IMG/VR virus record: IMGVR_UViG_3300034066_002888
Location: 1 to 29,113 of that record
DNA length: 29,113 nucleotides
DNA from: a virus
Reading direction: 5' to 3' (one strand)
The first letter of the stretch is position 1, and each line of letters begins with the position of its first letter. Under the pieces are notes generated by a model that did no database searches, was not told the DNA's origin, and worked only from the letters and a program-made list of their open reading frames with translations. The position numbers and the translations under genes were made by a program. Positions 3,154-28,601 of the stretch are shown piece by piece.

Positions 3154-3882
3154 ATGACCGTCAAGAGCCCCTATCTGTCCATGATTGCCAAGAAGCGTCC
3201 TTGGCAGGCTACTCCCGTGGATAATTCACCCGTCAAGGAGGGTGCCGAGGAGACGCTCTACAAGGCTCTGGCGCTTCGTCACATTGAACTTCCTGTGAAA
3301 GACTTGCTGGAGCAAGGGCTTGCCAAAGATCTCCCGTCCACTCCTGGTGTGATCGAAGCATTGCGCTCAAATCAAACCGACGAAGAGCGTCACGATGAAG
3401 CTTTGAATTATGTAGCTGCTGCTTATGGCGTCGACGAAAAAGCAGAGCGCGAAGTAAAACAAATCTTAAAAGCTTGGATGGAGCATCCAGCACATCCGAT
3501 TCACAAGGTTTCAATTATTGAGCGTAGCATTTTCTTTGTTGCGCTTCCGTTCTTTCGCTTTAACGGCAACATTGGCATGCGCACTGTTTCCGCCGATATT
3601 AGTCGTGATGAGCAGGTTCACTGCGGGGTGCATGGATTGGTTGCCAAGGAACTAAACGAGAAAGATTCTCAGAGCCTCAACAAGCTTCGCGCAGCTACTG
3701 CTGCTTGGCTTTTTGAAAAGCTTAGCAGTCATGAGGACAAGTGGCTGGACAAAGATGCTTGGATGAAGCGTTCTGAGCGTCTTTTCTGGGAGGGTAAAAC
3801 ATCCGATATGCAAGAAAGTCGTGCATCGAGGATGATCAGTTTCTTTGAAAGTTCAAACGTGAACCTGCCTATGTATTCTTAG
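3154..3882 (+). CDS. nrdB: Ribonucleotide reductase, small (beta) subunit
   Basis: The ferritin-fold partner of NrdA that houses the metal site and starts the radical. From ATG 3154 it has 242 residues, well below the usual 320-380; an in-frame TTG at 3106 lies inside a hairpin and is unlikely. The likely metal ligands are visible: E77xxH80 in DEERHDE, Glu123 in IERSIFF, E153xxH156 in RDEQVHCG, and a first acidic ligand probably at Glu45. The classical radical Tyr lies four residues after the first His; here that position is Leu84, so no canonical Tyr is present. This suggests a Tyr-independent cofactor, as in subclass Ic or related phage enzymes. It is cotranscribed with nrdA, separated by a hairpin. 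Confidence 0.85.
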   Translation: MTVKSPYLSMIAKKRPWQATPVDNSPVKEGAEETLYKALALRHIELPVKDLLEQGLAKDLPSTPGVIEALRSNQTDEERHDEALNYVAAAYGVDEKAEREVKQILKAWMEHPAHPIHKVSIIERSIFFVALPFFRFNGNIGMRTVSADISRDEQVHCGVHGLVAKELNEKDSQSLNKLRAATAAWLFEKLSSHEDKWLDKDAWMKRSERLFWEGKTSDMQESRASRMISFFESSNVNLPMYS

Positions 3883-7411: not shown

Positions 7412-10147
7412 CTAGGAGATTAAGCTTTCGATCCAGCCAATGTCATCATCTTTACTCGCGGCAAGAATGGCACCAGCCATTGCAAATGCCAAGTCGTCAA
7501 TACCAGTGGCTTTACCACCAGTTACACTCCATTGCCCGCTTGGTTTATACACCACGGTTAAATTCTTGAGCTGCATAATTGCTTTTTCGTGGCGATAGAC
7601 ATTAATTTGTCCTGCATTGAACAGCTCTCGCATTTTGCTAAAAGCTTTCATTTTTGAACTAACTGTCCAAGTTAGTTCCGTGATGGGCAAATCACTGGCC
7701 AAGCTTTGGATGGTGCCAGCGCTGTTGAACTGGTCCATCACAATCGTGTCAAACACATATAGGCGATGCTGCTCCTTAATCCAATCTTCCACTGCATTGA
7801 TATTGACTTCCATCCTCCCATTGATTTCAAAATCAGCAACAAACGAATGGAACTTATCCACGACAAGAGTGCCATTTTCGTAGTGAACAATACAAGCAGT
7901 GTAATCGTCGCGGCCAACGCCACCACGGGCGGGGTCAAGGGCAAGGACGTAAGCTCCCTGGAATTCAGGGCGTGGTGGTAGTGCTGCGCGGCGATCATCA
8001 ATACAGGCATCAATAACATCGCTTGCAACAAGGGCTGAAAGATTACTCGCGAATTGAGCCCCATATTCCACCTTAAACTTTTCGGGGTCGCGCTGTCTTT
8101 CTGCGTCGAGAAACTCTTGAGAAATACTTGGGTTCATCTCCCATGTTGGGAGATTCACTGCTTGCATAAAACGAAACCTGCCGGAGCTTGCCTCTTTGAA
8201 ATGCTGGTAGAAGATGCCGTCAGTCAGCCAGGGAGAGGACAGTTCAAGGATGCGCCCCTTGCCTCCAAACTGTGCAATGGCAGGCGATAGAGCGTCATAG
8301 ATGCCACGACCACCACTGTTTGCATCGCCCTCGTTAGCAAAGGCAAGTTCGTCAAATACTGCGCCAGCGCAAGCGAGACCACGAGCAGCTCGTCCAGACG
8401 TGGGGATGGCCTTGAACACGCAATTATTGCTGAGTTCAATGATGTCGGCAGTTTCGCGAACAATTTCTTGAGCGAAGGGACTTTCAATGATTAATTGGCG
8501 GATGTTGTTCAGAGCAATACGGGCCTGATCTTGGCTGTTGGCCACCGTCACCACGTACCATCGCTCCCCTTTTCTAACTTTGCGGCGATATTCTTCTTCT
8601 AAAACAAAGCACATATAGAGGCATGCCACTGCAGCCATCAAGGTTTTGCCGCTGTTGTGATTGACTATGCCGTTTGCGACAAAAGCATTGCTAACTGGCA
8701 CATGAAAATCAAACACTTCTTGCTGGGGCTCTTTCTTAATGCTTGCTATTGGATCGTAAAAATAGCGAACATCTTTCAAATCCCTAAAATGATGAGCAGC
8801 TTCTCCGCGAATATTATTTTCATCAAGAAGCTTGATCAATCCAGGAAGACGCCTTGCATTGAACTCTTCTTTTCCGCCCTTGATAGCGTTGCCAACGCAT
8901 GCGCGGATTTTACTAAGCAGACCATCACCTTTTCTGTGCCCCAAGTCATTAGCGAGTCGTCGTAACCATTCTTTTTGGTGGGGGATGGCCAACGAATTGC
9001 CGCCATCTCGGGCTACGCTGAGACCGTCAAGAGCTTTTAACTGCTTACGTGGCAAGCGAAAGCTAATGTCGCGGCAAAACTGTTGACGTGCCTCAAGGCC
9101 AAGGAGTACGATAATCCAATAATTTTTTCCTCGTACTTTTTTGGCCTTGATCGTAGAGACAATCCCAAGATTAAAAAGAAGCATATGCACTTCTCGTGCC
9201 AGCATTTCACATGCTGTGCTGAACGAAATAGCCTGACCATTTTTCTCTACACATCCATCGGTATCAAATAGTCCCGAAAGAAATGCGCAAACAATGGATC
9301 GCGGGGATTGCATGATCACCCAAGGTATGCGTTTTTGATCTCGCTTAATATCAATAGTCCACCCAAGATCGCTCAAAAAACGCCTGTAATGTTGCGAGCA
9401 GAAATTCAATGAGCATGTAGACAAGCGACGATTGTCCCTTTTAAGCGTGAAAGGCACGCCAAGTCCTCGCTCCAAGGATTGACTCATGAATGATGCATCA
9501 TCTTCGTGAGAAGTCACTTGGATGCCACTTTTCATTGTCCAGGATCCATCCCCTACTAATACGCCAAGCGCGTAGGCAAAATCTTCAGTCAGACTAGAAG
9601 GTGGCTGAATTGGCTTGGAATAAGGAGATAGCTGCGCGGCTTCTTCTGCTTTGTGGGCAAGATGAGCGATAAACGGACGACTGTCAGACCATAAATCCGC
9701 ACCAGGCCGAGTGACCACTTGATCGCCTTGCTTTAATTCCCCAAGGGGACGCCATTCGTGAACGCCATTTTCGCTCATCACCATCACTGGGTGGTTGGGA
9801 GTGCCTGCCACTTCAAAACCGCGAGAAGTGCGAATGCGAATAATATCCTGCTTGCCGCCCTTGTAAAAGCGGGATGCTTCTCTCCTCTCATTGCGAGGCT
9901 GCGCAACTTCTAGACTGCAATGCTCCCATTCATCATCAATAGCATCGCCTAGTCCAGCAAGCGAACCAATTTCAACCATGCCAATATTGGTCGCCACAAG
10001 CGTATCGGCTACGACACAGCGGCGCCCCAAGGCCCACACTGCATGAGACTTTCCTGGCTGAAAAAATTCATCCAGAATGCGAGCCTGTGCTGGATAAAGT
10101 TCTAGGCCGAGGGCGTGCTTAGCGAATTGACTGCAAGTAAGGTTCAC
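7412..10147 (-). CDS. terL: Terminase large subunit interrupted by an intein
   Basis: The DNA-packaging motor: an ATPase that pumps DNA into the prohead and a nuclease that cuts the concatemer. The 911-residue precursor consists of 456 extein residues and a 455-residue intein. The N-extein (1-43) ends in LGRR and the C-extein starts SGKT, so splicing restores the Walker A loop GRRSGKT. Further motifs are Walker B AGAVFDEL and an RNase H-like nuclease with acidic residues in LALDPARGG, VMDQFNSAG and GIDDLAFA. It starts at ATG 10147, overlapping the upstream gene by 4 bases. It is transcribed away from the portal gene, an unusual arrangement, and no small terminase is recognised nearby. Activity requires the intein to splice out. 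Confidence 0.95.
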   Translation of the reverse strand: MNLTCSQFAKHALGLELYPAQARILDEFFQPGKSHAVWALGRRCVVADTLVATNIGMVEIGSLAGLGDAIDDEWEHCSLEVAQPRNERREASRFYKGGKQDIIRIRTSRGFEVAGTPNHPVMVMSENGVHEWRPLGELKQGDQVVTRPGADLWSDSRPFIAHLAHKAEEAAQLSPYSKPIQPPSSLTEDFAYALGVLVGDGSWTMKSGIQVTSHEDDASFMSQSLERGLGVPFTLKRDNRRLSTCSLNFCSQHYRRFLSDLGWTIDIKRDQKRIPWVIMQSPRSIVCAFLSGLFDTDGCVEKNGQAISFSTACEMLAREVHMLLFNLGIVSTIKAKKVRGKNYWIIVLLGLEARQQFCRDISFRLPRKQLKALDGLSVARDGGNSLAIPHQKEWLRRLANDLGHRKGDGLLSKIRACVGNAIKGGKEEFNARRLPGLIKLLDENNIRGEAAHHFRDLKDVRYFYDPIASIKKEPQQEVFDFHVPVSNAFVANGIVNHNSGKTLMAAVACLYMCFVLEEEYRRKVRKGERWYVVTVANSQDQARIALNNIRQLIIESPFAQEIVRETADIIELSNNCVFKAIPTSGRAARGLACAGAVFDELAFANEGDANSGGRGIYDALSPAIAQFGGKGRILELSSPWLTDGIFYQHFKEASSGRFRFMQAVNLPTWEMNPSISQEFLDAERQRDPEKFKVEYGAQFASNLSALVASDVIDACIDDRRAALPPRPEFQGAYVLALDPARGGVGRDDYTACIVHYENGTLVVDKFHSFVADFEINGRMEVNINAVEDWIKEQHRLYVFDTIVMDQFNSAGTIQSLASDLPITELTWTVSSKMKAFSKMRELFNAGQINVYRHEKAIMQLKNLTVVYKPSGQWSVTGGKATGIDDLAFAMAGAILAASKDDDIGWIESLIS
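8654..10018 (-). mobile_element. TerL intein with LAGLIDADG endonuclease
   Basis: The intein covers precursor residues 44-498. Splicing motifs are complete: Cys44 as first residue (CVVADTLVATNIG), block B TPNHPV with Thr116 and His119, and a C-terminal VANGIVNHN followed by Ser as the +1 residue. Two LAGLIDADG helices are visible, LGVLVGDGS (Asp200) and FLSGLFDTDG (Asp297), so it is a full-length homing intein, not a mini-intein. The insertion point is inside the ATP-binding P-loop, the most conserved spot of the gene, which guarantees a target site in related phages and prevents clean loss. Confidence 0.95.
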
Positions 10148-10712: not shown

Positions 10713-12980
10713 ATGGAAGGCGAAGCAATTGATTTGGGGCATGCTACGGCAGGTGGCATCCGTTCAGACGGCCTTCAAAACGTGCTGATTGGCATGGGGA
10801 CTGGTCGTGATAAGAGTCAGTACACGAAAACTACGGCCACCGTCTTCCTGCCGCAAGAGGATCTTGAAAATCTCTATGGAGAATGGCTGCCTCGCCGCAT
10901 TGTTGACATCTATGCCGATCAAGCCACGAGGAAAGGCTTTAAAGTGTTGTTCGGTGGTGACGGCGTAAGAGCCGAAGAAGTGCAAGGCATTGAGCAAACG
11001 ATTGAAGACCTTTACATCCTTGAACACCTCAACCTTGCAGCCAAAAACGCCCGCCTTTATGGGGGTGCTTGTCTACTTCTCTTTATTGACGATGGGCGTC
11101 CCGCTTACATGCCTGTCGATAAACGCAACATCCGTCGCATTGAAGAAATTGAATGTCTTGATAGATGGCAAATTGCTCCAGTTATCAACGAAGAAAACTT
11201 ATACGACTATTCAAAAGCCACTTATTATCAGATCATCTCTGGAGATTTAATTAACGAACCCACGCTTTCTTATATTCATAAAGATAGGATTTTACGGTTT
11301 GATGGTGATTGGCTGCCTTATCGCATTCGTCAAAGGAACTATGGATGGGGCATGAGCAGTTTACAAACTGTTTATGACAGCTTCCGTCATTACTGGACTG
11401 GTCTTAATTCCGCTGCAACGCTCCTCACTGAATTCGATATTTTTGTTCATAAAGTGAGGGGCTTGGCGGCAATGCTTGCTGCTGGCAAAGAAAGCTCTAT
11501 TCGTGATCGTTTGCAGGTGAATGATATGAGCAAGAGCATTTATCGCGGCTATGCGATTGATGCTGAAAAAGAAGAGCTTGAATTCATTAGTCGCAACTTC
11601 GGTGGCATCGGGGAAATTTTAGAAAAGCTTCGCGTGGATATTATTGGCGCCAGCAAAATTCCTCATACAGTGTTGTTTGGTGAAAGCCCGAGCGGACTTG
11701 GTTCCACTGGCCGTAGCGAAGAGCGTGATTTCGCCAAGATGCTTTCTGATTATCAGAGCGTCCATTTCAAGCGTCCCATGAAGAAGCTGATGGAATACAT
11801 CATGCTGAGCAAGGAGGGGCCGACAAAAGGAGAAATGCCCGACTCATGGCGCATCTCCTTTAATCCATTGTTTGAGCTTAATGAGCGCGAAATGGCTGAC
11901 GTAAGGGCTCGCGTAGCGGCTGTAGACGGCCGTTACATCCAACTAGGTGTCCTTACGCCTAAGGAAGTGGCGGACGCCCGTTACGGCGGTTCTGAGTGGA
12001 GCATGGAACTTACGCTCGATCCGTCAGTGGAACGCGCTAATGAGATGCCCACTCCAGAAATGAGTGGAGCCACCCAAAAACGGGGTGGTTTGGCAGTGCC
12101 GCCTGGCGGGCGCGATCCAATGAATGAAGAAAATGGCACGCTTCCCATGGATGGAAGCAGGGAAGTGGAAGACAGTGCTACTGGTCTTTTCCTGCCTCGT
12201 GATTTAGAAGAAATTCGTGGTGACGTAAAATTCACTGATGCTGAGCTTCATTCTCGTGCAGTAAGTGCTGCCAAGGCAAAATTTAAAGTGTGGCCTTCTG
12301 CCTATGCAAGTGGCTATGTAGTACAGCAGTACAAGCAAATGTACAAGAAGAAGCACGGATCCCTAGCTGGCGCCTTCAAGAGCGACGAAGGTGATTTGCA
12401 CGCCGATGATCTTGATAAATGGTTCAAAGAAAAGTGGGTGAGGATTGGAGCCAATGGTGAAATCCTTGGCCCTTGCGGCGCTCGCGAAAAAAAGGAAGGC
12501 AAGCCTAAATGCCTTCCTCAGGCAAAAGCTCAGGCCATGAGCAAAGAAGAGCGTCAGACAATCGTGCGCCGCAAGCGAGCTGCAGATCCAGACCCTGAGC
12601 GTAAGGGACCGGCAAAAATGGTCAGCAGCAAAACGGACGCCCAAGATCCGAGTATTCACATGTACAAAACGCAACAAGAAGCTGAGGCCACTGCTGCGAA
12701 AATTGGATGCGAAGGCTATCACGTTGAGCAAACTGAAGATGGCCCTGTTTACATGCCCTGCTCAACCCACGCTCTTTTTGAGAAAAAGCATAAAGAATTT
12801 GTATCTCAAAAACAAGATGCGATTGAACCCTTGAAAACCAGCGGACTCATTCTTGCTGATATTGACGAAGCTTCTCTCATTGATGAAGAGGACATTTCCG
12901 CTGCATTGAATCAATGGAAGGAAGAAGCGCCTGAGCGCTTCAAAGATATTCTGGAGGCAGAGGATGTCCAGCCTCAATGA
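10713..12980 (+). CDS. Portal protein (DUF1073 type) with C-terminal extension
   Basis: Forms the dodecameric ring at the head vertex through which DNA enters and leaves. The first 440 or so of 755 residues match the DUF1073 portal type: LPRRIVDIYADQATRKGF, ARLYGGACLLL, PVDKRNIRRIEE, VLFGESPSGLGSTG. The rest is an extension. KVWPSAYASGYVVQQYK begins a Lys-rich module including LDKWFKEKWVRIGANG, PKCLPQAKA and EERQTIVRRKRAA. A last module has IGCEGYHVE and YMPCSTHALF, a possible Cys/His site. I recall similar modules appended to portals in cyanophages and other phages, but not their role. The extension may line the inside of the head or act in assembly. It overlaps the next gene by 17 bases. 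Confidence 0.85.
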   Translation: MEGEAIDLGHATAGGIRSDGLQNVLIGMGTGRDKSQYTKTTATVFLPQEDLENLYGEWLPRRIVDIYADQATRKGFKVLFGGDGVRAEEVQGIEQTIEDLYILEHLNLAAKNARLYGGACLLLFIDDGRPAYMPVDKRNIRRIEEIECLDRWQIAPVINEENLYDYSKATYYQIISGDLINEPTLSYIHKDRILRFDGDWLPYRIRQRNYGWGMSSLQTVYDSFRHYWTGLNSAATLLTEFDIFVHKVRGLAAMLAAGKESSIRDRLQVNDMSKSIYRGYAIDAEKEELEFISRNFGGIGEILEKLRVDIIGASKIPHTVLFGESPSGLGSTGRSEERDFAKMLSDYQSVHFKRPMKKLMEYIMLSKEGPTKGEMPDSWRISFNPLFELNEREMADVRARVAAVDGRYIQLGVLTPKEVADARYGGSEWSMELTLDPSVERANEMPTPEMSGATQKRGGLAVPPGGRDPMNEENGTLPMDGSREVEDSATGLFLPRDLEEIRGDVKFTDAELHSRAVSAAKAKFKVWPSAYASGYVVQQYKQMYKKKHGSLAGAFKSDEGDLHADDLDKWFKEKWVRIGANGEILGPCGAREKKEGKPKCLPQAKAQAMSKEERQTIVRRKRAADPDPERKGPAKMVSSKTDAQDPSIHMYKTQQEAEATAAKIGCEGYHVEQTEDGPVYMPCSTHALFEKKHKEFVSQKQDAIEPLKTSGLILADIDEASLIDEEDISAALNQWKEEAPERFKDILEAEDVQPQ

Positions 12981-13645: not shown

Positions 13646-14371
13646 ATGGATGTTTTAGTTGGCAGCACGGGGCTAATCGGCAGCGTCCTTCGCGAGCACC
13701 ATGACTTTGACTGCCGTTTTAATTCCGAGAATATTCATCTTGCTCCATTGCTGAAGGAAGATATTGACACGCTTTACTTGGCGTGCTTGCCAGCGGAGAA
13801 ATGGAAGGCAAACCAGGCGCCAATAGCTGATTTCGACAACATGTATCATGCGCTGTCAAAGATGAGGCTATGGAAACCCAAGGAAGTTATTCTTTATTCG
13901 ACCATTGATATTTATAGTCAAACTTATAAATACGTTCAAGATTTTCCAGAAATACATGCCATTGACTATGGATCTGTCCGCTATATTTTTGAGCTGCTAG
14001 TTAAGCAAACATTCCCTGATAGTGTTGTTACGATTATTCGCCTTCCAGCATTATTTCATAAGCGCATCAAAAAGAACATCTTGTTTGACCTGTTGAATCG
14101 GCACAATGTAGAAAAGATCAATGCCAATTCTTGTTATCAATGGTACGATCTAAGCGATTTATGGGAGGACACTGAAGTATGCGAAAAAGGAAAAAGCCAT
14201 CAATGGTTTTCCGCTCCCATTGAAACACTAGAAATTATTGACAAATGGTTCCCATGGGCTAGAACAGAAGTTGATTGCAGTGTTCGCGTTGAATACAATT
14301 ATGGGCCTTATTTTGCTAGCAAGGAAGCAACCATGAAAAAGATGGAGGCTTTTATCAATGCTTGGAATTAG
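13646..14371 (+). CDS. NAD(P)-dependent sugar epimerase/reductase-like
   Basis: A 241-residue extended-SDR-like protein. It begins with a Rossmann loop G6-STG9-LIG12 (LVGSTGLIGSVL) for NAD(P). The catalytic Tyr region reads DYGSVRYIFE: the usual YxxxK is YxxxR here, so activity may be altered or use the second Tyr. IIRLPALF corresponds to the family's later substrate-binding strand. It should act on a nucleotide sugar. It starts one base after the minor head gene and begins a block of glycan genes; the next gene overlaps it by 14 bases. Confidence 0.7.
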   Translation: MDVLVGSTGLIGSVLREHHDFDCRFNSENIHLAPLLKEDIDTLYLACLPAEKWKANQAPIADFDNMYHALSKMRLWKPKEVILYSTIDIYSQTYKYVQDFPEIHAIDYGSVRYIFELLVKQTFPDSVVTIIRLPALFHKRIKKNILFDLLNRHNVEKINANSCYQWYDLSDLWEDTEVCEKGKSHQWFSAPIETLEIIDKWFPWARTEVDCSVRVEYNYGPYFASKEATMKKMEAFINAWN

Positions 14372-15098
14372 CGCTATTGGCTGGACCGATGAAGAAGAGG
14401 AGCAAATCTTAAGTGCAAACGCTGGGGCGTTTAACGTACTAGAGATTGTGCCTGCACGTATTTTTGCCCAAGGCAAAGACTGTGCCGATATTGCAAAAGA
14501 ATATCGCGAAAGCTACGGCTTGTGGGCATATTCAGCTCAAGCATTATTCTTTCAAAGCAATGTGCAAAGTTTTGAAGATACAGCAGCAGTGTCGGAGCAT
14601 TTACTGAAAGTGATTAGCCTTGGTTCTCTGATGGGAATCAAACGTTTTGTCCTAGGAAGTCCGAGTCTGAGAAAGGGAAGTCCATCGTGCTTAATGAATG
14701 TACTGAAGCGTATGGACGCAGTGTTGGAAGCAAATGGAGCCATCCTTTGCATCGAGCCTGTAGCAAAATGCTACGGAGGGTCATATTTCTTTACGGTCAA
14801 CGAGATTGTTAACCACATTGACTTTTGCAATCTTAAAAATGTCAAGACGATGCTTGACACCAATAATGCATGGCTGCAAGGTGATAGCCCTAAAAAGCTG
14901 TTGAACCATTACTGGCCCTACATTGCCCACGTGCATATTAGTGATACTGACAATGGCCCACTGCTCAACAAATACGAACACAAGCAAATCAAGAGAATGC
15001 TTGATGGCATCAACTACGAGGGTGCCATCGTAAGAGAATTATTCCAAGCCAAAAAGAACATGCGCGATTATCCGCTATTTCGCAGTATTTATGCTTGA
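14358..15098 (+). CDS. Sugar isomerase/epimerase, TIM barrel
   Basis: A 246-residue protein of the xylose isomerase-like TIM-barrel superfamily. The strand-end motifs occur in order: LCIEPVAK (metal Glu), MLDTNNAWLQG (Asp), AHVHISDTDNG (His and Asp) and IVRELFQ (last Glu). These side chains hold a divalent metal for keto-aldo isomerisation or epimerisation of sugars. The start ATG 14358 lies inside the previous gene, indicating coupling. Its 3' end overlaps the convergent FAD gene by 10 bases, with no terminator between. It probably works with its neighbours on sugar supply for glycan modification. Confidence 0.75.
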   Translation: MLGISAIGWTDEEEEQILSANAGAFNVLEIVPARIFAQGKDCADIAKEYRESYGLWAYSAQALFFQSNVQSFEDTAAVSEHLLKVISLGSLMGIKRFVLGSPSLRKGSPSCLMNVLKRMDAVLEANGAILCIEPVAKCYGGSYFFTVNEIVNHIDFCNLKNVKTMLDTNNAWLQGDSPKKLLNHYWPYIAHVHISDTDNGPLLNKYEHKQIKRMLDGINYEGAIVRELFQAKKNMRDYPLFRSIYA

Positions 15099-16066
15099 GA
15101 CATGGCTTCTTTTGCCATCTTTTCGATGGCATAAATGCCTTGAATTTTTCCCGTGTAAAAAGATAACAGATTGTCGTGTTGTCTAAAAATGGGAGTGCGT
15201 TGAGCACTAGCATTTTTGCTTTTTGCTTTAATTGATACCACGGGAAATACATATTGGAAGTAATCGTCAAATTCGGGCCAGTAGCTCATCACATGCTCTT
15301 CTATTGAACACCGACGGTCATACATAGAGCCATAATTATTGCCAAAACAATTAATTTGCTTTTGCTCAATGACGCCAAGTTTTACATGGCTTAGCGAAAA
15401 CATTGAAGAGCCATATGGATAGATGGAAAACAAATCTCCGTCGATGAAAGTGAGGGCGCCAAATGGCGGCGTTTTAAGTGGGCGATAAACGAACATCGCC
15501 ACTGCCTCAAAATAATCTCCATTGACAGCAGGCAAAAGAGAATTATTAGTGCAATCAAGAACAAAATCATAGTCTTGCTTGAGCAGCGCAATAGAGCTTT
15601 CGTTGATTTCTTCTCTCCTCACGATGGGAAGCAATAGCTCTTCAAAGTATTTGCCAGTAGCAGTTGGTGATATATACTTTTCGATGGTATGCAGAATCAA
15701 GGAGGAGCGGTTTAGCAGTCCCGCATCTGCTTCGGTGTGCGGCCAATCCTTGAAAATCAGTCGAATTGTTTCTGCATCTAACAAGCTTTCGTCTTCTGAC
15801 ACCGCATAGAAATTGTTTTGAATGCTCTCTGTTAGATGGCCATAGTCAAGCATAAATCGCTCAAACGTATTTCGGCACAACATGCGCGTAGCATGATTTC
15901 TGGCGTAGTGATAGCCATAATGCAAACGATTTTGATTGATCAATGAGGCTTCAGAAATAAGTATTTCATTGCGCTCAAACAATGTCACATCAGCTTCGTC
16001 TATCAAGCGCGATGCCAAATGACATCCCGTCCAGCCACCACCAACGATTGCAATCTTAAGCGCCAT
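15089..16066 (-). CDS. FAD-dependent oxidoreductase (DAO-like)
   Basis: A 325-residue protein from ATG at 16066. The N-terminus is a dinucleotide-binding fold, IAIVGGGWTGCHLASRL with G9xG11xxG14, and an acidic residue after the second strand in VTLFERN, which fits FAD. LINQNRLHYGYHYAR matches the region after the flavin loop in DAO-type enzymes. Substrate is not evident; by context it may oxidise or reduce a sugar. It overlaps the stop of the upstream gene on the same strand (TGATG), so the two are coupled. It is convergent with the isomerase gene. Confidence 0.75.
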   Translation of the reverse strand: MALKIAIVGGGWTGCHLASRLIDEADVTLFERNEILISEASLINQNRLHYGYHYARNHATRMLCRNTFERFMLDYGHLTESIQNNFYAVSEDESLLDAETIRLIFKDWPHTEADAGLLNRSSLILHTIEKYISPTATGKYFEELLLPIVRREEINESSIALLKQDYDFVLDCTNNSLLPAVNGDYFEAVAMFVYRPLKTPPFGALTFIDGDLFSIYPYGSSMFSLSHVKLGVIEQKQINCFGNNYGSMYDRRCSIEEHVMSYWPEFDDYFQYVFPVVSIKAKSKNASAQRTPIFRQHDNLLSFYTGKIQGIYAIEKMAKEAMSQA

Positions 16067-16755
16067 CAAATGTCAATACAAAGCGTTGGCTGCACTCCTT
16101 GCCAATTTGACTTGGCCTTGAATAAGTCCAACTGTGGGAAGTATTCTATGCGGCGAGGCATGCCGGTTCCATAGACATCAGCATGCCCTTGATAGTTCCA
16201 TTCATCTGGGCCATGCTTGTCTGGGTGGTAAAGGCCAGTAGGTGAATCCTGCAGCTTCCAGAGCATGTAGTCCTCGTTAGGCACTCCCCATTGCTTCCAT
16301 GCTTGCAACGCCTGTGGTGAACTGTCCATGTTCTTAATCGCCATGAGACGGTCCTTATGGTGCATGAGGTAGTCCATGCTGTAAAGGCCAATGCTCATTG
16401 ATGGTGTATGTTTCATCGCCACCTTTTCAAAACCTTCTGGAGGGCCGTAGACAAGGCTTTTGAAGGCAGGCCCAGCAATGCAAGTGTCGTGAAGGAGAAA
16501 CCAGAAGGGGCTTGTCAGATGGTGTTCAACAATTTCAATGAGGGGCGTATATTCAAAGGAGTTTTGCGGCGTGCAAATCATTGGCGCGTCGCCATAATGG
16601 TCAATTTGCCAGTTTTCTTGGCCTCCATTGATGATCAGGATTTCATTGGTGCCAATTCCAGCGCGAGTGAGAGAGGGGATAATTTTGGGCAGTGTATAAG
16701 CGGCAAACTTATTACAAGTGCTAATACAGAAGCGCACAGAGGATGGTGGCAGCAT
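16066..16755 (-). CDS. Putative glycosyltransferase-like protein
   Basis: From ATG at 16755, with AAGGAG 7 bases upstream, the product has 229 residues; a longer frame to 16827 has no such signal. The start RFCISTCNKFAAYTLPKII and the later EILIINGG, SPFWFLLHDTCIAG and ENWQIDHYG segments have the strand-helix rhythm of a GT-A nucleotide-sugar fold, with HDT a possible metal-binding position. No named family is certain. It is cotranscribed with the FAD enzyme on the minus strand, within the glycan block. Confidence 0.5.
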   Translation of the reverse strand: MLPPSSVRFCISTCNKFAAYTLPKIIPSLTRAGIGTNEILIINGGQENWQIDHYGDAPMICTPQNSFEYTPLIEIVEHHLTSPFWFLLHDTCIAGPAFKSLVYGPPEGFEKVAMKHTPSMSIGLYSMDYLMHHKDRLMAIKNMDSSPQALQAWKQWGVPNEDYMLWKLQDSPTGLYHPDKHGPDEWNYQGHADVYGTGMPRRIEYFPQLDLFKAKSNWQGVQPTLCIDI

Positions 16756-16775
16756 GGTTGTCTCCTTGTGCTGCC

Positions 16776-16781
16776 TATAAT
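16776..16781 (+). promoter_or_regulatory. Possible -10 box before HNH/GT operon
   Basis: TATAAT is a perfect -10 hexamer 60 bases before the HNH start at 16841. No matching -35 is seen 17 bases upstream. The expected transcript would begin at or near the hairpin at 16787-16814. Confidence 0.4.
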
Positions 16782-16786
16782 AATGT

Positions 16787-16814
16787 GAGCTGGCGAGTTC
16801 GCACCTCCCAGCTC
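16787..16814. repeat. Leader hairpin before HNH gene
   Basis: GAGCTGG (16787-16793) pairs with CCAGCTC (16808-16814) around a 14-base loop. It lies between the -10 box at 16776 and the HNH start, in the shared region of two divergent genes. No T-run follows. Confidence 0.5.
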
Positions 16815-16840
16815 GTGACCAACTCACTGGAGATGAGCCG

Positions 16841-17353
16841 ATGATTTATTGTAAACCGCTACCGACTTTGGCACGCCTTCGCTGGTTATTGGCGCTTCGG
16901 TCTGATGGGGTTTTAATTTGGAAGCGACCAACCAGTAATCGCGTAAGACCGGGAATGGAGGCAGGGCGTTGGAGTAAAAAATATCGCTATATCAATATTG
17001 ACGGAAAAGCTTATCCGCTCCACCGAATTGTATGGGCATTATCAAATAATAGGCTTCCGGGGCAGCTTGAAATTGATCATATAAATGGAAACCCGGCAGA
17101 TAATCGCCCTCAGAATTTGCGAGCTTGTTCGCACGAGCAGAACATGCTTAATTCTCGGCTGCGCTCGGATAATACGAGTGGCTTAAAAGGTGTTTCTTAT
17201 GATCCGTCGTCCAAGTCAAAACCGTGGCGCTCCTACTTTAAAACCAAGAGGCTCGGTCGTTTCGCCACGGAAAAAGAGGCTTTTGATGCACTGCAGGAAT
17301 TTGTGGCGAAAACAGGGGAGTCTTGTTACTACCGAACAGATTCTGCGCATTAA
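16841..17353 (+). CDS. HNH homing endonuclease with AP2-like domain
   Basis: A 170-residue endonuclease from ATG 16841, with GGAG 9 bases upstream. The HNH_3 core is complete: LHRIVWAL, then LEIDHINGNPADNRPQNLR and EQNMLNSRL. The C-terminal part (SGLKGVSYD, WRSYFKTKRLGRFATEKEAF) is an AP2-like DNA-binding domain as in many phage HNH genes. It lies between the divergent and plus-strand halves of the glycan block and was probably inserted there. It is unlike the other HNH genes in this window in domain make-up. Confidence 0.9.
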   Translation: MIYCKPLPTLARLRWLLALRSDGVLIWKRPTSNRVRPGMEAGRWSKKYRYINIDGKAYPLHRIVWALSNNRLPGQLEIDHINGNPADNRPQNLRACSHEQNMLNSRLRSDNTSGLKGVSYDPSSKSKPWRSYFKTKRLGRFATEKEAFDALQEFVAKTGESCYYRTDSAH

Positions 17354-17377
17354 CATTGGACAAGCTTACTTGGTTCC

Positions 17378-18601
17378 ATGGCAAAAATCTTGTATTGTGG
17401 CGATGCGTTTGTAGAAACCGGATTCGGGCGAGTCGCTCAGTATTTGCTCCCGGCTCTGGCTAAAGAGCATGAGGTTGTTGTACTGAGCGTAAACTTTCAC
17501 GGCGACCCTCACCCGGAAGCGAGAAATTACAAAGTTTATCCCGCGATGCTGCATGGATCTGATCCATTTGGCGCGCATCGCATCGCCGGTGTAATCCATA
17601 TTGAAAAACCGGATCTTGTTTGGGTGACAAATGATATTTGGATTGCCTTGAATCTCTGGGAAAAAGCCAAGCCCCTCCAAGCTCAGTTGGGATTTAAGTG
17701 GTTTGTTTACACACCTATTGACTCCTACGGACTGTTTCCAAATTTGGCGGGTCCGATGATGGAATGGAACGGATTAGCTACTTACACGCAGTTCGCAGAA
17801 AAAGAACTGCGCTTAATGGGCTACGACAAGCCCATTGATATTATTGGCCATGGCACTGACTTCGAGAAATTTTTCCCTCTTGACAGGCAGCAATGCCGCA
17901 AAGAGCTTGGCGTGCCAGAAGATGTGTTCATTGTTTTTAATGGCAATCGCAATCAGCCGCGCAAGCGAATTGACCTTACGTTGAAAGCGTTCATTAAATT
18001 TGCAAAAGACAAAGACGACGCGCGTTTATGGTTGAATATGGGCTCCAAGGATTTGGGATGGCCAATTATTGATTTGTTCAAGCGCATTGCTCGCGATGAA
18101 GGTTTCGACCCAACAAATAAGTTAATTTTGACAAGTCCTCATTTTTCTGTGGACAACTGTCTCTCTATTGAGCAATTAAACAAAGTGTATAACGCCACCG
18201 ATGTGGGCATCAATACTTGCATTGGTGAGGGTTGGGGCTTGGTCAATACTGAACATGGTTCCGTTGGCGTTGCACAAGTTGTTCCCGACCATACAAGCTT
18301 GGCTGAAATTTTTGACGAACTGCCACGCATTACTTGCAACGCTTCTGAAACCGACAGGAATTATGGCCTTGAGCGCCTACTTCCTGATCCTGATAGTGCC
18401 GCAGAAATCTTGTCGTATTACTACGAAAATCGCGATGCACTGAAGAAAGATGGGCAATGGTGCTACAAGCGGCTGCATGAAGAGCCATTCACTTGGCCGT
18501 ATATTCAGCAGCAATTGCTTGGCGTGGTAGAACGTACTCTCAATGCAAAGGCCGCTGAGCCCGAATTCAAAGGCTTTGGCACTCCCGCAAAAATTGTTTG
18601 A
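17378..18601 (+). CDS. Glycosyltransferase, GT4-like (GT-B fold)
   Basis: A 407-residue protein that should move a sugar from a nucleotide donor to an acceptor. N-terminal half: ILYCGDAFVETGFGRVAQ with a Gly-rich loop, then IDIIGHGTDFEKFFPL, the usual hinge region of GT4 enzymes. C-terminal half: FNGNRNQPRKRIDLTLKAF, the donor-site strand with basic residues, and GEGWGLVNTEHG, the E-x7-E motif that holds the nucleotide sugar. It starts at ATG 17378 without a clear Shine-Dalgarno sequence. Two further transferase-like genes follow in the same direction with almost no spacing. Confidence 0.88.
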   Translation: MAKILYCGDAFVETGFGRVAQYLLPALAKEHEVVVLSVNFHGDPHPEARNYKVYPAMLHGSDPFGAHRIAGVIHIEKPDLVWVTNDIWIALNLWEKAKPLQAQLGFKWFVYTPIDSYGLFPNLAGPMMEWNGLATYTQFAEKELRLMGYDKPIDIIGHGTDFEKFFPLDRQQCRKELGVPEDVFIVFNGNRNQPRKRIDLTLKAFIKFAKDKDDARLWLNMGSKDLGWPIIDLFKRIARDEGFDPTNKLILTSPHFSVDNCLSIEQLNKVYNATDVGINTCIGEGWGLVNTEHGSVGVAQVVPDHTSLAEIFDELPRITCNASETDRNYGLERLLPDPDSAAEILSYYYENRDALKKDGQWCYKRLHEEPFTWPYIQQQLLGVVERTLNAKAAEPEFKGFGTPAKIV

Positions 18602-18603
18602 TC

Positions 18604-19320
18604 ATGCAAATTTCACAAATCTTCCTTTCAACTGATCCATCAGAAGCGCTTAGCCCTTTTCTAAAGCACGCTACGGGAACTATCGACGCATGCTTTCCCG
18701 AGGCGAAGCATGTTATTTACAACAGCGACTCACTTCGCGCCTTCATTGCTGATAACTATGAAGAAGAAGTGTTGTGGGCTTACGACACGCTCAAGCCGTT
18801 TTCTTACAAAGCAGATCTTGGTCGTTTCTGCTTGCTAAACAAGCTTGGTGGCTGGTATTTTGATATTGGCGTGAGGGCTTTTAATGCAGTGGAGCTTGGT
18901 GATCGCATCAAGTTTCTTGCCTTCCGCGACATTCAGCGTTTTAGCTACACAAGCTGGGCGTGCGCCACAACAGTGCTTTATTCTCAGCCCGATAATCCCG
19001 CGTTGCAAACTGCCATTGAAATGATTGTGGCAAATTGCGTGCAACAATACTATGGCATCACTCCATTGTGCCCTACTGGCCCCACGCTGCTTGGCAAAGC
19101 TTTGGCAGCGAATGGAAGTCAAGCTGATTTTGTTTATGGAGACTACCTAGAGCTGACGCCCACTCACGGTCAAAAGAATAGGGCTTTTGTACTGCCCGAT
19201 GGCACAATCATGGCATGGAGCAAGCCTGCTGGTGGTGGCGATTTGACGGGGCTTGGCGCCAAGGGCGTTAATAATTACAATGAGCTGTGGCAAGCTCGCA
19301 AGGTGTACGGCGATGACTGA
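18604..19320 (+). CDS. Glycosyltransferase with DxD-like motif, GT32-like
   Basis: A 238-residue protein from ATG 18604 (a TTG at 18598 overlaps the upstream stop). KADLGRFCLLNKLGGWYFDIG matches the central region of GT32/OCH1-like or capsular-sugar transferases, where the usual 'GG-x-Y-x-D-x-D' reads GGWYFDIG; the second Asp is missing. LCPTGPTLLGKAL matches the later 'TGP' element. The degenerate DxD could change metal use. Part of the three-gene plus-strand transferase run. Confidence 0.75.
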   Translation: MQISQIFLSTDPSEALSPFLKHATGTIDACFPEAKHVIYNSDSLRAFIADNYEEEVLWAYDTLKPFSYKADLGRFCLLNKLGGWYFDIGVRAFNAVELGDRIKFLAFRDIQRFSYTSWACATTVLYSQPDNPALQTAIEMIVANCVQQYYGITPLCPTGPTLLGKALAANGSQADFVYGDYLELTPTHGQKNRAFVLPDGTIMAWSKPAGGGDLTGLGAKGVNNYNELWQARKVYGDD

Positions 19321-20023
19321 TAGCACGATTTATGCAGTTTGCATTCCTGGCGAGAAAGTGCGTTACACGGCCAAGTCTCGCGTTGTGCCGATTATGGGGG
19401 GAAGCCATGCGCTAACTGACAACGAGCGCGAAAAATTGCGCTTAGAGGGCTATGTTTTCGACGACGAAAATGCTTTTCTTTCTGGACTAAATAGTCGCTG
19501 TGGCGAACTGTCTTGCGTGCATTGGATGATTCGCAACGCCAATGAAGACAATATTGGCAATGCCCAGTATCGGCGCAATTGGATAGAGCCACAAGGTGAA
19601 TGGTATTGCCCAGAAACACTTTACTTGCCTGAGCCTGCTCAATTTTCTTGTACTCTTGAGCAACAATTTTATGGAGGACATTCTGCTTTTGATGCACCAG
19701 CGATCACACGAGAATTGGCTGACACAAAAGAATGGTTGTTTTCTCGGGAGGAAATAGATCAAATATGGGCACAATCTTCATTTATTGGCTGCAACATGGC
19801 GCGTGGTCCACGGCAAAGTTATAAGCAATTTATGGCGATCCTGCTTTCGGCATTGGGGCCAATTTGGTTTAAGCATAAGGAGCATTTTCGCTCCATTGAT
19901 GGTTATGACAAGCGTGCAATTGCTTTTATTGCAGAACGTTTGATTACTGGCATGGTTTTATGCAGGGATAGGATTTTGCCAGGCGTTAAGATAGCCACGG
20001 CTCCGATAGGATTTATTAATTGA
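19313..20023 (+). CDS. DUF4422-like glycosyltransferase
   Basis: A 236-residue protein from ATG 19313, overlapping the previous stop by 8 bases. The segment NSRCGELSCVHWMIRNA followed by DNIGNAQYRRNWI matches the DUF4422 pattern (an E-L-T-x-x-Y-W-x-W-K-N stretch and then Y-I-G-x-x-H-Y-R-R), here with QYRR in place of HYRR. DUF4422 proteins are found in polysaccharide clusters and are treated as glycosyltransferases. It is the last gene of the glycan block. Confidence 0.65.
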   Translation: MTDSTIYAVCIPGEKVRYTAKSRVVPIMGGSHALTDNEREKLRLEGYVFDDENAFLSGLNSRCGELSCVHWMIRNANEDNIGNAQYRRNWIEPQGEWYCPETLYLPEPAQFSCTLEQQFYGGHSAFDAPAITRELADTKEWLFSREEIDQIWAQSSFIGCNMARGPRQSYKQFMAILLSALGPIWFKHKEHFRSIDGYDKRAIAFIAERLITGMVLCRDRILPGVKIATAPIGFIN

Positions 20024-20041: not shown

Positions 20042-20305
20042 ATGACTACAAAAGAAAAGCAAGCAAAAATTGCTCGTGTTCTTCGCGAATTTAAAGCTGG
20101 CACTCTTAAGGGTAGTGGCGGTGAGAAAATTAAAGACAGAAAGCGTGCAATTGCCATTGCTCTTTCAGAAGCTGGCATGAGTCGTCAAGGTAAGAGCGAT
20201 ACCTATTGGGACAATTATTTCATGACTCTTATTGGCGAAGAGGAAGAAGAAGAGGAAGAGGGCATGGAAGAAATGGAGGACGGTTCCTGCGGAAAAAAGC
20301 GCTGA
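20042..20305 (+). CDS. DUF6496-type protein, short product before -1 frameshift
   Basis: An 87-residue product from ATG 20042; a TTG at 20024 is in frame but unlikely. Residues 4-47 (KIARVLREFKAGTLKG, KIKDRKRAIAIALSEAGMSR) match the DUF6496 pattern known from many phages. A run of Glu follows (about residues 62-82). The end, C-G-K-K-R-stop, contains A-AAA-AAG at 20293-20299 read in frame as GGA AAA AAG, so a fraction of ribosomes may slip into the -1 frame and continue to 20655. Role in the virion is unknown; I recall related modules near portal and head genes. Confidence 0.75.
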   Translation: MTTKEKQAKIARVLREFKAGTLKGSGGEKIKDRKRAIAIALSEAGMSRQGKSDTYWDNYFMTLIGEEEEEEEEGMEEMEDGSCGKKR

Positions 20306-20332
20306 GGGGTGACGCTGAAAGCTTTGCCCCTC
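20275..20332 (+). promoter_or_regulatory. Programmed -1 frameshift signal
   Basis: Three elements are in order. GGAGGA at 20275-20280 can act as an internal Shine-Dalgarno stimulator, 12 bases before the heptamer. The slippery heptamer A-AAA-AAG is at 20293-20299, in phase with the DUF6496 frame. GAGGGG (20304-20309) can pair with CCCCTC (20327-20332), a stem starting 4 bases after the heptamer. The zero-frame stop TGA is at 20303. The design matches the dnaX-type site of E. coli. Confidence 0.75.
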
Positions 20333-20655
20333 CTGCTGCTGTAAGAGCCGCTGCTCGTCGCGGCCTGGAGTTGCGCAAGAAGCATGGGAAAGGAGGATTG
20401 ACGACGCAGGAAGCGGGCAGGCAGGGCATTGGAAGCGGCGTTGCTCGCGCGACAAGCTTGGCCAATGGCGAGAAGGTGAGCTATGAGACCATTAAACGCA
20501 TGGCCGCATTTTTCTCAAGGCATCGCAAAAATTTTGCTGGGGGCGAAGATGACGCGGGATTTGTGTCGATGTTGTTATGGGGCGGAAGGAGTGGAGAAAG
20601 ATGGGCTCGCTCTATAATCAAGCGAGTTGAGCAACAGAAGAAAGATGGACTATAG
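20299..20655 (+). CDS. -1 frame extension with RGLELRKKHGKGG domain
   Basis: The -1 frame adds 118 residues to the first 86 codons, giving a 204-residue fusion. The added part starts ALRGDAESFAPPAAVRAAAR, then RRGLELRKKHGKGG, GVARATSLANGEKVSYETIK, FSRHRKNF and SMLLWGGRSGERWARSI. I recall this domain from phage structural operons, alone or joined to other modules, but know no function. The frame has no ATG or GTG before the domain; only a TTG at 20206 in the shadow of the Glu-run is available. That makes frameshifting the simplest way to express it. A plain frameshift mutation or sequencing error is the alternative. Confidence 0.7.
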   Translation, partial: ALRGDAESFAPPAAVRAAARRGLELRKKHGKGGLTTQEAGRQGIGSGVARATSLANGEKVSYETIKRMAAFFSRHRKNFAGGEDDAGFVSMLLWGGRSGERWARSIIKRVEQQKKDGL

Positions 20656-21301
20656 GCAGGCGTATATTCGCTTGATTGAGAGGGCAAAAGAAAGGACGGA
20701 AAAGGATTTAGATCTAAGTCAAAAATATGAATGGCATCATTACTTCCCTATTTGTTTCTGGCGTGACAGGAAAGAAAACAAGAAAATTGTTCCTCTGACT
20801 TTGAGGGAACACTGGGTCGCCCATCGCCTGCTGTTCAAAATGTTTCCATGCCACGGAACGGTTGCGGCGTTAATTTGCATGTCTAAGCGCGACCCCAAGA
20901 TGAACTCGCGCAAATTTGAGAGACTTAGACAAGTCCTTAGCGAGCACAATTGGACAAAGACTTCAGAAGGCAGGGCTTTCCTTTCTCAGCAGATGAAAAG
21001 GCGTGTCGCAGAGGGTTGGACAGTTTCGGAAGAGGGACGCCAAAAGATTTCAGAAACATCCAAGAAAACGCAGGACAAATGGAGAGAGGAAGGCGGTCAT
21101 CCGCTCTCATCGGATAAAGCACGCGCAGCATCTAGCGAAAGAGCAAAAGCTCGCAACAAGGAAATGAATGCATGGTTAAACAAAGAAAAGGGAAAAGTCG
21201 TGAGAAAATGCGAGAAGTGTGGGGCTCAGATACGCGGAACAATGGGAAATATGAAGCAGCATCAGCGTGGTGGTAAGTGCCGCCCGCAAAACGAGGCTTA
21301 A
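20645..21301 (+). CDS. HNH-type homing endonuclease with zinc-finger tail
   Basis: A 218-residue protein from ATG 20645, overlapping the preceding frame by 11 bases. The catalytic region is YEWHHYFPICFW then VPLTLREHWVAHRLLFKMFP, the 'HH-x-x-P ... L-T-x-R-E-H-x-x-A-H' pattern of a phage HNH group. SEEGRQKISETSKK is a NUMOD3-like DNA-contact motif. The C-terminus has RKCEKCGAQIRG and HQRGGKC, a likely Cys2-His-Cys zinc finger. It is the fifth free-standing endonuclease gene of the window and again of a different make-up. Confidence 0.8.
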   Translation: MDYRQAYIRLIERAKERTEKDLDLSQKYEWHHYFPICFWRDRKENKKIVPLTLREHWVAHRLLFKMFPCHGTVAALICMSKRDPKMNSRKFERLRQVLSEHNWTKTSEGRAFLSQQMKRRVAEGWTVSEEGRQKISETSKKTQDKWREEGGHPLSSDKARAASSERAKARNKEMNAWLNKEKGKVVRKCEKCGAQIRGTMGNMKQHQRGGKCRPQNEA

Positions 21302-22016: not shown

Positions 22017-23216
22017 ATGAATATGAGCACCATTTCTTGCCGATACGATTTCTCTCCTATTGAGAAATACGAACTCACGCCAGAAGGTTATCTTCGAGCG
22101 TGGGCTTCAATCGCACGCACTGGCATCCAACACTACACAGATAGTGATGGCTCCATTCGTCGCGAATATCGTCCTGAAACAGAAGTGGCGTCTCCCGATA
22201 GTCTTGCTTCATTCGCGGGCAAGGCAATCACTTCTGAGCATCCGCCTGTACTGCTCGATTCTGAGAATACTAAGGACTACCAAGTAGGTTTTAGTGGTAC
22301 TGAAGTGGTGTACGACAATGGTTTTGTCAAGGCGGTGATGACAATCACTGACGAAGACACCATCAAGCGCATCATGAAAGGAGATGCTCGTGAGGTAAGC
22401 GCGGGCTATAGGGTGAATTATGATCCCACGCCTGGCGTTACAGAAAACGGTGAACATTACGATGGCATCCAAAAGGAAATCATCGGCAATCACATCGCTG
22501 TTGTTCGTCGGGGCCGCGCTGGCCCGCAAGTGAAGCTTCATCTTGATAGGCAAGATGCTGCTGACCCATCTTTGATCTCTAATGGAGGAGACCATCTCAT
22601 GACGGCAAAAGTCGTTTTTGATGGCGCCGAGTTCGAGGTGACTGAGAGCGTTGCTCTTGCAATCACCAAAGAACGCGAAGACGCCAAAATGTCCTACGAG
22701 GACATGAAACAAAAGTACGATGAAATGATGTCCAAAGCTTCCAAAATGAAGGAAGAGATGGACGCCATGGAAAAGGAAATGCAAGGCAAGTGCGATTCCG
22801 CTGAGGGTCGTGCTGACGCCCTGGCTGAGCAGGTGGAAGAGCTGAAAGGCGAACTTGCTGCTGCTCAAGAAATCAACCTTGATTCCATGGTTGAAGAGCG
22901 CGTGGCTCTCATTGAGAAAGCCAAGCCTGTCCTGGATTCTGCTTATGAATTTGCTGGCAAAACTGCCCGCGAAGTGATGGTTGATTCCATCAAAGCAGTG
23001 CGTGGTGACGAGCTTGATCTTTCTGAGAAGAGCGATGACTACGTGCAGGCAATGTTCGACACTCTTTCCGAAGGTCGTTCTGACTCTGCCACCACTGACG
23101 AGCTGCGTAAAGCCGTAGCTTCCATTGCTTCTCCTGTTTCTGCACCCTCTGCCTATATGGACATGCTGCAGAATGCCTGGAAGAAGCCCCTTTCCATCTC
23201 CAAGGAGGCTAAGTAA
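22017..23216 (+). CDS. Prohead protease/scaffold fusion (DUF2213 type)
   Basis: A 399-residue protein that cleaves head proteins and helps shape the prohead. Residues 1-180 match DUF2213: YLRAWASIARTGIQHY, ITSEHPPVLL, VKAVMTITDEDTIK, AREVSAGYRVNYD and IIGNHIAVVRRGRAGP; the Ser of SAGY and the His of GNHIAVV are the likely catalytic pair. From about 195 the protein is scaffold-like: a Lys/Glu/Met-rich coiled coil (about 225-285) and a C-terminal helical end. It starts at ATG 22017 or at ATG 22023. A strong internal start at 22599 could make the scaffold part alone. Confidence 0.82.
   Translation: MNMSTISCRYDFSPIEKYELTPEGYLRAWASIARTGIQHYTDSDGSIRREYRPETEVASPDSLASFAGKAITSEHPPVLLDSENTKDYQVGFSGTEVVYDNGFVKAVMTITDEDTIKRIMKGDAREVSAGYRVNYDPTPGVTENGEHYDGIQKEIIGNHIAVVRRGRAGPQVKLHLDRQDAADPSLISNGGDHLMTAKVVFDGAEFEVTESVALAITKEREDAKMSYEDMKQKYDEMMSKASKMKEEMDAMEKEMQGKCDSAEGRADALAEQVEELKGELAAAQEINLDSMVEERVALIEKAKPVLDSAYEFAGKTAREVMVDSIKAVRGDELDLSEKSDDYVQAMFDTLSEGRSDSATTDELRKAVASIASPVSAPSAYMDMLQNAWKKPLSISKEAK
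22584..22601 (+). promoter_or_regulatory. Internal ribosome binding site and ATG in protease gene
   Basis: GGAGGAG (22584-22590) lies 8 bases before ATG 22599, in frame with the protease gene. It would give a 205-residue scaffold protein ending at 23216, as phage lambda makes Nu3 inside gene C. Most genes here lack such a strong signal, including the protease gene itself. Confidence 0.6.
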
Positions 23217-27402: not shown

Positions 27403-27656
27403 ATATTGACTATCTATGGAGCGAAGACCGCTCTGTTCATGCCATTAATAATCAACTTGACGGAGCGTCCATGGAGGTGGGCATCCTCTGTCTTATTTCT
27501 TGTCGAGACGAGACCATTAGAATAAGCAACGAAAATCATTCATTGCTTGTTGAAGTGCCTAAAGAATTTCGCTCTAGTAGCGAAAGGGTGAAGGTGTTCA
27601 ACGCATTGTTAAACGTTCTTGATCATGAGCAAATACAGCTTCCTTCTGCAGACTAA
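27399..27656 (+). CDS. Hypothetical protein, 85 aa
   Basis: From ATG 27399, overlapping the previous gene by 4 bases. Alternating strands (EVGILCLISCRDETIRI, HSLLVEVPKEF) and a closing helix. No family is recognised. It overlaps the start of the tail chaperone gene by 32 bases, so it belongs to the same translation-coupled cluster. Confidence 0.6.
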   Translation: MNIDYLWSEDRSVHAINNQLDGASMEVGILCLISCRDETIRISNENHSLLVEVPKEFRSSSERVKVFNALLNVLDHEQIQLPSAD

Positions 27657-28161
27657 AGCCGAAGATTATTTTGAGCTTCTTCCTGAAATTCGCATGAAGA
27701 AATATGGTGGCTGGCTTGTTGCTGAAGCAATTGAACAGGAAGAAATTAGTAAGCTGCAAAGCCAGGCTACTATTAGGGCTGTGCAACTGGCTAAGCGCAT
27801 TGCCACTGCAAAGGACATTCCTCTTGACGAAGCTTTTGGCTTGCTTCAAGGCGGCGGAGGCTCCATTACTGAAGCCGAGCTTCTTTCGGAGTACACCGAG
27901 GAAACGCTGAGCATGATCACCAGTGGCTCTTCAGTGGAGAGCACCAACGCCCGCATGGTTACTGCCTTTATTCGCTCTCGCGGTCAAGGTTTGATTGATG
28001 GCGAATGGCAAGACCTCGCTGACTGGGAATTGGACGATACTAAAAATCTTCCTCGCAAAGCCATTGCAAAAGTGGTTGAGTTTATTGCTGAAGAGCAAAA
28101 CGCCGAGACGCAGGAGGCAATGGCAGCAAAAAAAGCGACGAAGAGGAATGGTCCTCAGTAG
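27625..28161 (+). CDS. Tail assembly chaperone, short form (G-like)
   Basis: A 178-residue protein from ATG 27625; the in-frame TTG at 27619 is less likely. It is mostly helical (VAEAIEQEEISKLQS, TIRAVQLAKRIATAKDI, KAIAKVVEFIAEEQ) and stands directly before the tape measure gene, the position of phage lambda gene G. Near the end, codons GCA AAA AAA give the heptamer A-AAA-AAA at 28128-28134, where ribosomes can slip to produce the longer GT-like form. The short form ends at TAG 28159. Confidence 0.8.
   Translation: MSKYSFLLQTKAEDYFELLPEIRMKKYGGWLVAEAIEQEEISKLQSQATIRAVQLAKRIATAKDIPLDEAFGLLQGGGGSITEAELLSEYTEETLSMITSGSSVESTNARMVTAFIRSRGQGLIDGEWQDLADWELDDTKNLPRKAIAKVVEFIAEEQNAETQEAMAAKKATKRNGPQ
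28112..28156 (+). promoter_or_regulatory. Programmed -1 frameshift signal of tail chaperones
   Basis: AGGAGG (28112-28117) lies 10 bases before the heptamer A-AAA-AAA (28128-28134), in phase with the short-form frame. After an 8-base spacer, GAGGA (28143-28147) pairs with TCCTC (28152-28156) around ATGG. Spacing and parts match known -1 sites. Confidence 0.85.
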
Positions 28162-28601
28162 CAGAAATGCTGGAAGCGCGAGCGCGTAACCAGCTTAAAA
28201 ATTTAACTGATTGGAACGAAATCTATTTTCGGCTTTCGGCATCAGATTTTAATGACAGGCGATGGCATGCAGATCAATTTGGCTTGCAGCCATTGTCTGA
28301 TATTAAGCGTGCATTGAAATATCTTGATAAGCATGACGTGGCAAAATACAATGTGCAGAGCGTTGCCATCGCCAAGCTTGGCACGATGGCGGCTGGCATG
28401 ATGGCGGGACGGAAGTCCAAGGTGAAGCCAGAAGATTTCTTGCCATTTGATACCAAAGCGATCAAAAAAGATACGGGCGTTACAGATGAAAGCTTGATCA
28501 TCTTCCAGCGCCTAATGAAGACGAGGCGAATGGATGGAAGAGTAATTGCGTTGTTGGCTGATGATTTAAAGGCTTTTGCTGGGCGTAATCAGGATCAATG
28601 A
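28134..28601 (+). CDS. Tail assembly chaperone, frameshift extension (T-like)
   Basis: After slippage the -1 frame continues AAA-AGC-GAC (K-S-D-E-E-E-W-S-S-V) into the frame containing MLEARARNQLKNLTDW, adding 155 residues to the first 170 for a 325-residue fusion. The extension is helical and includes PLSDIKRALKYLDKHDV and a C-terminal DGRVIALLADDLKAF. An ATG at 28167 lacks a Shine-Dalgarno sequence, so separate translation is less likely. In long-tailed phages the fused form binds the tape measure protein and recruits tail tube subunits. Confidence 0.8.
   Translation, partial: SDEEEWSSVAEMLEARARNQLKNLTDWNEIYFRLSASDFNDRRWHADQFGLQPLSDIKRALKYLDKHDVAKYNVQSVAIAKLGTMAAGMMAGRKSKVKPEDFLPFDTKAIKKDTGVTDESLIIFQRLMKTRRMDGRVIALLADDLKAFAGRNQDQ

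Follow-up and report, generated by a model that had tools for sequence, protein, structure and literature searches.

Comparative evidence for a programmed -1 frameshift linking DUF6496 to a head-module domain in S-CBS4-like phages

Conserved frameshifts in phages are known mainly for tail chaperones and for a few capsid or tail proteins. The tail assembly chaperones provide the G/GT -1 frameshift of the lambda type (Xu et al. 2004, reviewed in PMC5009743). The heptamer of lambda G/GT is G_GGA_AAG. Frameshifting also appends C-terminal domains in the T3 capsid, Lactobacillus phage A2 and Listeria phages, and these extensions are often Ig-like and carried on a major capsid or tail protein (PMC5009743). 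The -1 frameshift of Escherichia coli dnaX combines A_AAA_AAG with a downstream hairpin and an upstream Shine-Dalgarno-like element, and the shift there truncates the product.

Here we describe a site with strong comparative support that lies in the head module of a virus and joins a gene pair for which we found no such report; the literature searched (selected passages, with subscription papers mostly outside it) contained neither a frameshift at this pair nor any paper on DUF6496. The site unites two genes of S-CBS4-like phages that have been annotated as separate unknowns. Comparative analysis shows a conserved signal, a conserved frame relation, constraint at the RNA level and natural in-frame fusions. 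On this evidence we regard a programmed -1 ribosomal frameshift at 20293-20299 as very likely. The evidence is comparative sequence only, and both slippage in vivo and its efficiency are inferred.

Layout of the site and its relatives

The window, the whole stretch of DNA analysed, is a 29-kb virus record (29,113 nucleotides), possibly a fragment. Its relevant features are as follows.

20042..20305, + strand: ORF A, with the DUF6496 domain, an acidic tail and the slip site (PF20106 match, translation)
20275..20280, + strand: GGAGGA, Shine-Dalgarno-like, 12 nt 5' of the heptamer (sequence)
20293..20299, + strand: slippery heptamer A_AAA_AAG, X_XXY_YYZ in phase with ORF A
20299..20655, + strand: ORF B in the -1 frame, a predicted all-helical head-module domain (phrog_2859)
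20303..20305, + strand: 0-frame stop TGA, one codon past the heptamer
20304..20332, + strand: putative frameshift-stimulating hairpin (fold z, covariation, synonymous constraint)
22017..23216, + strand: head maturation protease (DUF2213, phrog_530), the next recognisable downstream head gene

ORF A begins with the ATG at 20042 and translates to 87 aa if unshifted, its 0-frame end reading GGA (20291) AAA AAG CGC TGA (20303-20305) and its protein ending in CGKKR. It matches Pfam PF20106 (DUF6496) at 33.8 bits, above the gathering cut-off of 24. The -1 frame is open to 20655, and the slip product would comprise 86 + 118 = 204 aa with B as its C-terminal part. The hairpin is a 9-bp stem, 20304-20312 pairing with 20324-20332, separated from the heptamer by 4 nt. 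A first-pass annotation made from the sequence alone had given the heptamer coordinates and phase, the GGAGGA 12 nt before it, the 204-residue fusion and the DUF6496 identity of the first frame, and sequence, translation and the Pfam match upheld all of these. It had also described a 6-bp GC stem 4 bases after the heptamer, of which the spacing held and the length did not. Its claim that all three parts of a dnaX-type signal are present holds for the window, while the Shine-Dalgarno-like part is not conserved in the family.

IMG/VR contains hundreds of relatives of domain B (20299-20652), and removal of identical stretches left 125 distinct loci. One isolate is close, Synechococcus phage S-CBS4, where A and B are annotated as the separate hypotheticals gp018 and gp019; its DNA at the site reads AGA AAA AAG GGC TAA GGGGCGACGC...TTCGCCCCTC, with the same -1 relation. 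The viruses appear to form a cyanophage-like family, an inferred host assignment that rests on S-CBS4 and gene order alone. The loci share ancestry and their counts are not independent events. The fusions and heptamer swaps counted among the IMG/VR loci are lower bounds.

According to the proposed mechanism, ribosomes translating ORF A would arrive at A_AAA_AAG and pause at the hairpin 4 nt downstream; in the window, the upstream GGAGGA would probably pair with 16S rRNA and add to the pause. In a fraction of passages the two lysine tRNAs would re-pair one base back, from AAA-AAG to AAA-AAA. Shifted ribosomes would read the -1 frame through domain B, and others would terminate one codon later, giving two products, a DUF6496 protein of 87 aa and an A-B fusion of 204 aa.

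Conservation of the signal and of both frames

The first-pass annotation had proposed that aligned homologues should keep the heptamer and both frames, and this check was passed, with the heptamer and the frame relation kept in 115 of the 125 distinct loci. In 113 of these 115 the heptamer is placed exactly 30 nt upstream of the GDAESF Phe codon; the other two (L223, L241) carry it at 33 nt and lack the stem, and the stem is disrupted at one further locus (L235). In loci of full architecture the first A-frame stop is at -20, -23 or -8 relative to this Phe codon. In-phase heptamers at other A-frame positions of these ORFs number only 5/5064. The fixed-register heptamer in 115/125 loci is thus far beyond chance.

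Three heptamer types, A_AAA_AAG, G_GGA_AAG and C_CCA_AAG, occupy a single register. We scanned the fetched loci with a pattern that fixed only AAAG and the hairpin and left the first three heptamer bases free; because this pattern was derived from the same family, it tests the three free bases and not the prevalence of the signal. All 119 matches had AAA, GGG or CCC at the free positions (80 AAAAAAG, 33 GGGAAAG and 6 CCCAAAG), and 118 of them encode RRGL or RRGF when read in the B frame. The pre-slip amino acid varies (e.g. Gly, Arg, Ala, Glu, Lys, Met, Leu, Val, Gln), and the third base of its codon matches the next two bases. The heptamer is conserved by kind and not by letters.

The hairpin was evaluated by folding, covariation and codon choice. 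The window folds at -19.6 kcal/mol (z = -3.7), and none of 200 shuffles was as stable. Across 84 distinct sequences (alignment A1), 91.9% of stem cells are paired as against 87.4% in column shuffles (0/500 shuffles) and 54-71% in slid partner registers. Changes on both sides of the stem occupy 31 cells, compared with 12.7 in shuffles (0/500). In L100 and in L195, G-C pairs have been replaced by A-U through compensatory change. The third base of the stem Gly codon tracks the partner codon, being C or U with Ala GCC and mostly A with Ser TCC (chi-square 53, seven mismatches). Codon use in the stem differs sharply from that elsewhere in B: Arg is AGG in 111/113 vs 180/1206, Ser is TCC in 46/46 vs 38/914, and Ala is GCC in 62/65 vs 376/1591. 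Shared ancestry among the relatives makes p-values no more than indicative. The stem covaries and imposes rare synonymous codons, which demonstrates constraint at the RNA level. A Shine-Dalgarno-like stimulator was considered as a further conserved element and rejected; it is strong upstream in about half of the loci and missing from the RCxxYL sub-lineage (0/35).

Substitutions among 423 close pairs locate the change of frame. Upstream of the heptamer, differences distribute as 581/742/1925 over A-frame codon positions, third positions taking 1925 of 3248; downstream they distribute as 1379/573/7116 over B-frame positions, third positions taking 7116 of 9068. The same pairs have zero differences at AAAG. 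The codon phase of substitutions switches at the heptamer, and B is under strong coding constraint. Together the heptamers, the covarying stem and this switch exclude chance, sequencing error and decay, and they disfavour transcriptional slippage and internal initiation.

Of the remaining ten loci, seven (L009, L016, L080, L093, L104, L121, L145) fuse both domains in a single frame without a heptamer, the stem being weakened in most, and three (L107, L128, L138) are single-base indel variants; as phase was assigned from B, L128 and L138 still display the heptamer at -30. Uninterrupted homologues lacking the heptamer had been named beforehand as the observation that would refute a frameshift. 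They exist (7/125), but they are scattered within the frameshift clade. We built a tree from B with the signal left out (a quick search, many weak forks); it requires at least 21 changes of heptamer type or fusion state, and at least 5 between the fused and the frameshifted state. These counts are independent of the root, so direction is not shown, and repeated fusion inside a frameshifting clade is a possibility suggested by the scatter. With the heptamer lost in such scattered relatives, the fusion is evidently a viable product. With the naturally fused relatives one can ask directly why the ratio is kept fixed.

Domain B, its partner and rival explanations

We searched for the identity of B at several levels. 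No Pfam family was found, either with the single sequence or over 30 relatives, and no PDB relative was found by profile or by fold (best E 2.2). The N-terminal domain of lambda cI came up as a PDB look-alike and was rejected as not significant. By sequence B matches a phrog_2859-type module, and by fold it matches the module on prohead proteases, XkdF-like proteins and portals among predicted viral structures. The B module is N-terminal to a Peptidase_S78-capsid fusion in two phages, Synechococcus phage S-CBS3 and Roseobacter phage CRP-406. Vibrio and Limnohabitans phages have it at the start of an ORF that closely precedes the major capsid gene. In the window and S-CBS4, which have similar gene order, it is flanked by the portal region on one side and the head protease on the other. 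By these gene settings and fold matches B is a head-module domain. It is likely a mobile one, a conclusion drawn from sequence and predicted structure; its biochemical role is not established. A model of the natural fusion L016 (alignment A4, comprising fusions and B rows with isolate-phage rows left out) has mean pLDDT 75, with both domains helical and a low-confidence acidic linker.

Several other features of the window were recorded. Homing-endonuclease-like genes lie at 20627-21301 and 16841-17353, one with a TTG start inside the end of ORF B. The portal protein (10713-12980) carries DUF5872 and DUF3721 at its C terminus, so that this head module has other small appended domains as well. 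The cargo at 13646-20023, which separates the portal region from the head genes, includes a DUF4422 protein and a TIM-barrel protein of the AP_endonuc_2 type; the corresponding position in S-CBS4 is taken by a glycosyl transferase and a methyltransferase. On the minus strand, a 911 aa protein (7412-10147) where the large terminase subunit would be expected contains an intein (Intein_splicing and LAGLIDADG_3), and the S-CBS4 terL is only about half that length. Genes for the large and small subunits of ribonucleotide reductase occupy 1638-3882, the small subunit scoring below the Pfam cut-off (22.7 vs 33.6 bits). A tail-chaperone candidate is located at 28128-28134, where an ORF (27619-28161) ends GCA AAA AAA GCG, with an in-phase A_AAA_AAA, and the -1 frame opens at 28092 and runs through the ORF at 28167-28601; its halves had no family match except a weak one to Minor tail protein T.

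The partner of B is variable. In four loci (L035, L036, L039, L064) the cassette of heptamer, stop and stem follows a leader of some 25 codons that has no DUF6496 core, and fusion to DUF6496 is therefore not the constant function; L041 and L046 have a long extra stretch between DUF6496 and a CCCAAAG heptamer, which also makes the 0-frame partner variable. The earlier reading of the site as a frameshift fusing DUF6496 to a second phage domain is supported, with the correction that DUF6496 can be absent where the cassette persists. The constant part is likely to be frameshift-gated expression of B, with DUF6496 as its usual but dispensable partner. As for purpose, by analogy with other phage frameshifts the slip would most plausibly keep B to a small, regulated fraction of a head-assembly component, an inference we could as readily doubt as accept; the suggestion that the ratio sets the copy number of the second domain in the virion likewise stays inference.

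The alternative that survives best is a variant of this explanation and does not exclude it. It holds that the frameshift is real, that it only limits the dose of B, and that the A product is a mere leader. The four loci that keep the cassette without the DUF6496 core indicate that limiting B may be the constant purpose, and the extra sequence in A of L046 is also in its favour. However, almost every other locus retains DUF6496, as does each of the seven fusions, and A is therefore apparently selected too. We lean slightly against this variant.

Independent translation of B, by internal initiation or by termination-reinitiation near the A stop, would reduce the overlap to gene packing. In its support, S-CBS4 gp019 is annotated from an internal GTG, and an in-frame GTG, the commonest candidate start, occurs in 32/115 loci and a TTG in 15/115. 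Against it, no start codon for B is conserved across the relatives, and 59/115 loci lack any in the region. The annotated gp019 start truncates the conserved GDAESFxPP, and the S-CBS4 peptide GDAEGFAPPASVR starts upstream of it. The first-pass annotation had stated that B lacks its own ATG or GTG; TTG codons are in frame in the window, yet none is a conserved start. Independent translation also leaves the heptamer, the stem covariation and the natural fusions unexplained, and we consider it very unlikely.

Transcriptional slippage, in which RNA polymerase slips on the A-run and yields mRNAs with one base more or less, would be consistent with the six-A run of the window. It is equally improbable, as G_GGA_AAG and C_CCA_AAG provide only short runs at the same place, and the hairpin spacing and in-phase X_XXY_YYZ rule suit tandem tRNA slippage. 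Sequencing error, or decay of a gene by one lost or gained base, could draw on the homopolymer site, the three one-base variants and the occurrence of in-frame fusions, but is all but excluded by the same -1 relation in 115 distinct loci and isolate S-CBS4, even without an A6 run, and by the strong coding constraint retained in B.

A bolder reading of the frameshift, which we favour by a narrow margin, is that the dose of a mobile head-assembly module is set by a frameshift switch that is family-wide and previously undescribed, the gate being kept while the N-terminal partner is swapped or lost and the heptamer is exchanged repeatedly among three types. If this is true, lineages with an in-frame fusion are a natural experiment on what the fusion ratio does.

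Comparison with known systems

As in G/GT, a -1 shift near the end of a short ORF would yield a minor fused product, and G_GGA_AAG of lambda is one of the three heptamers at this locus. Unlike G/GT, the site lies between portal and head protease, joins unrelated domains and has a strong conserved hairpin; the G/GT position directly upstream of the tape measure gene is not met. The resemblance to dnaX includes A_AAA_AAG, a hairpin a few nt downstream and, in the window, the upstream Shine-Dalgarno-like element, whereas the shift here would extend the product into a new domain and that element is not conserved in the family. As in the T3, A2 and Listeria cases, an extra domain would be placed on a fraction of a structural-module protein, but B is predicted to be all-helical and its partner is DUF6496. 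An Ig-like beta-sandwich is absent from the extension, the L016 model being helical in B and without a PDB fold match. Modules of the phrog_2859 type on proteases, capsid fusions, XkdF-like proteins and portals are encoded in one frame, whereas B here would be reached through a frameshift.
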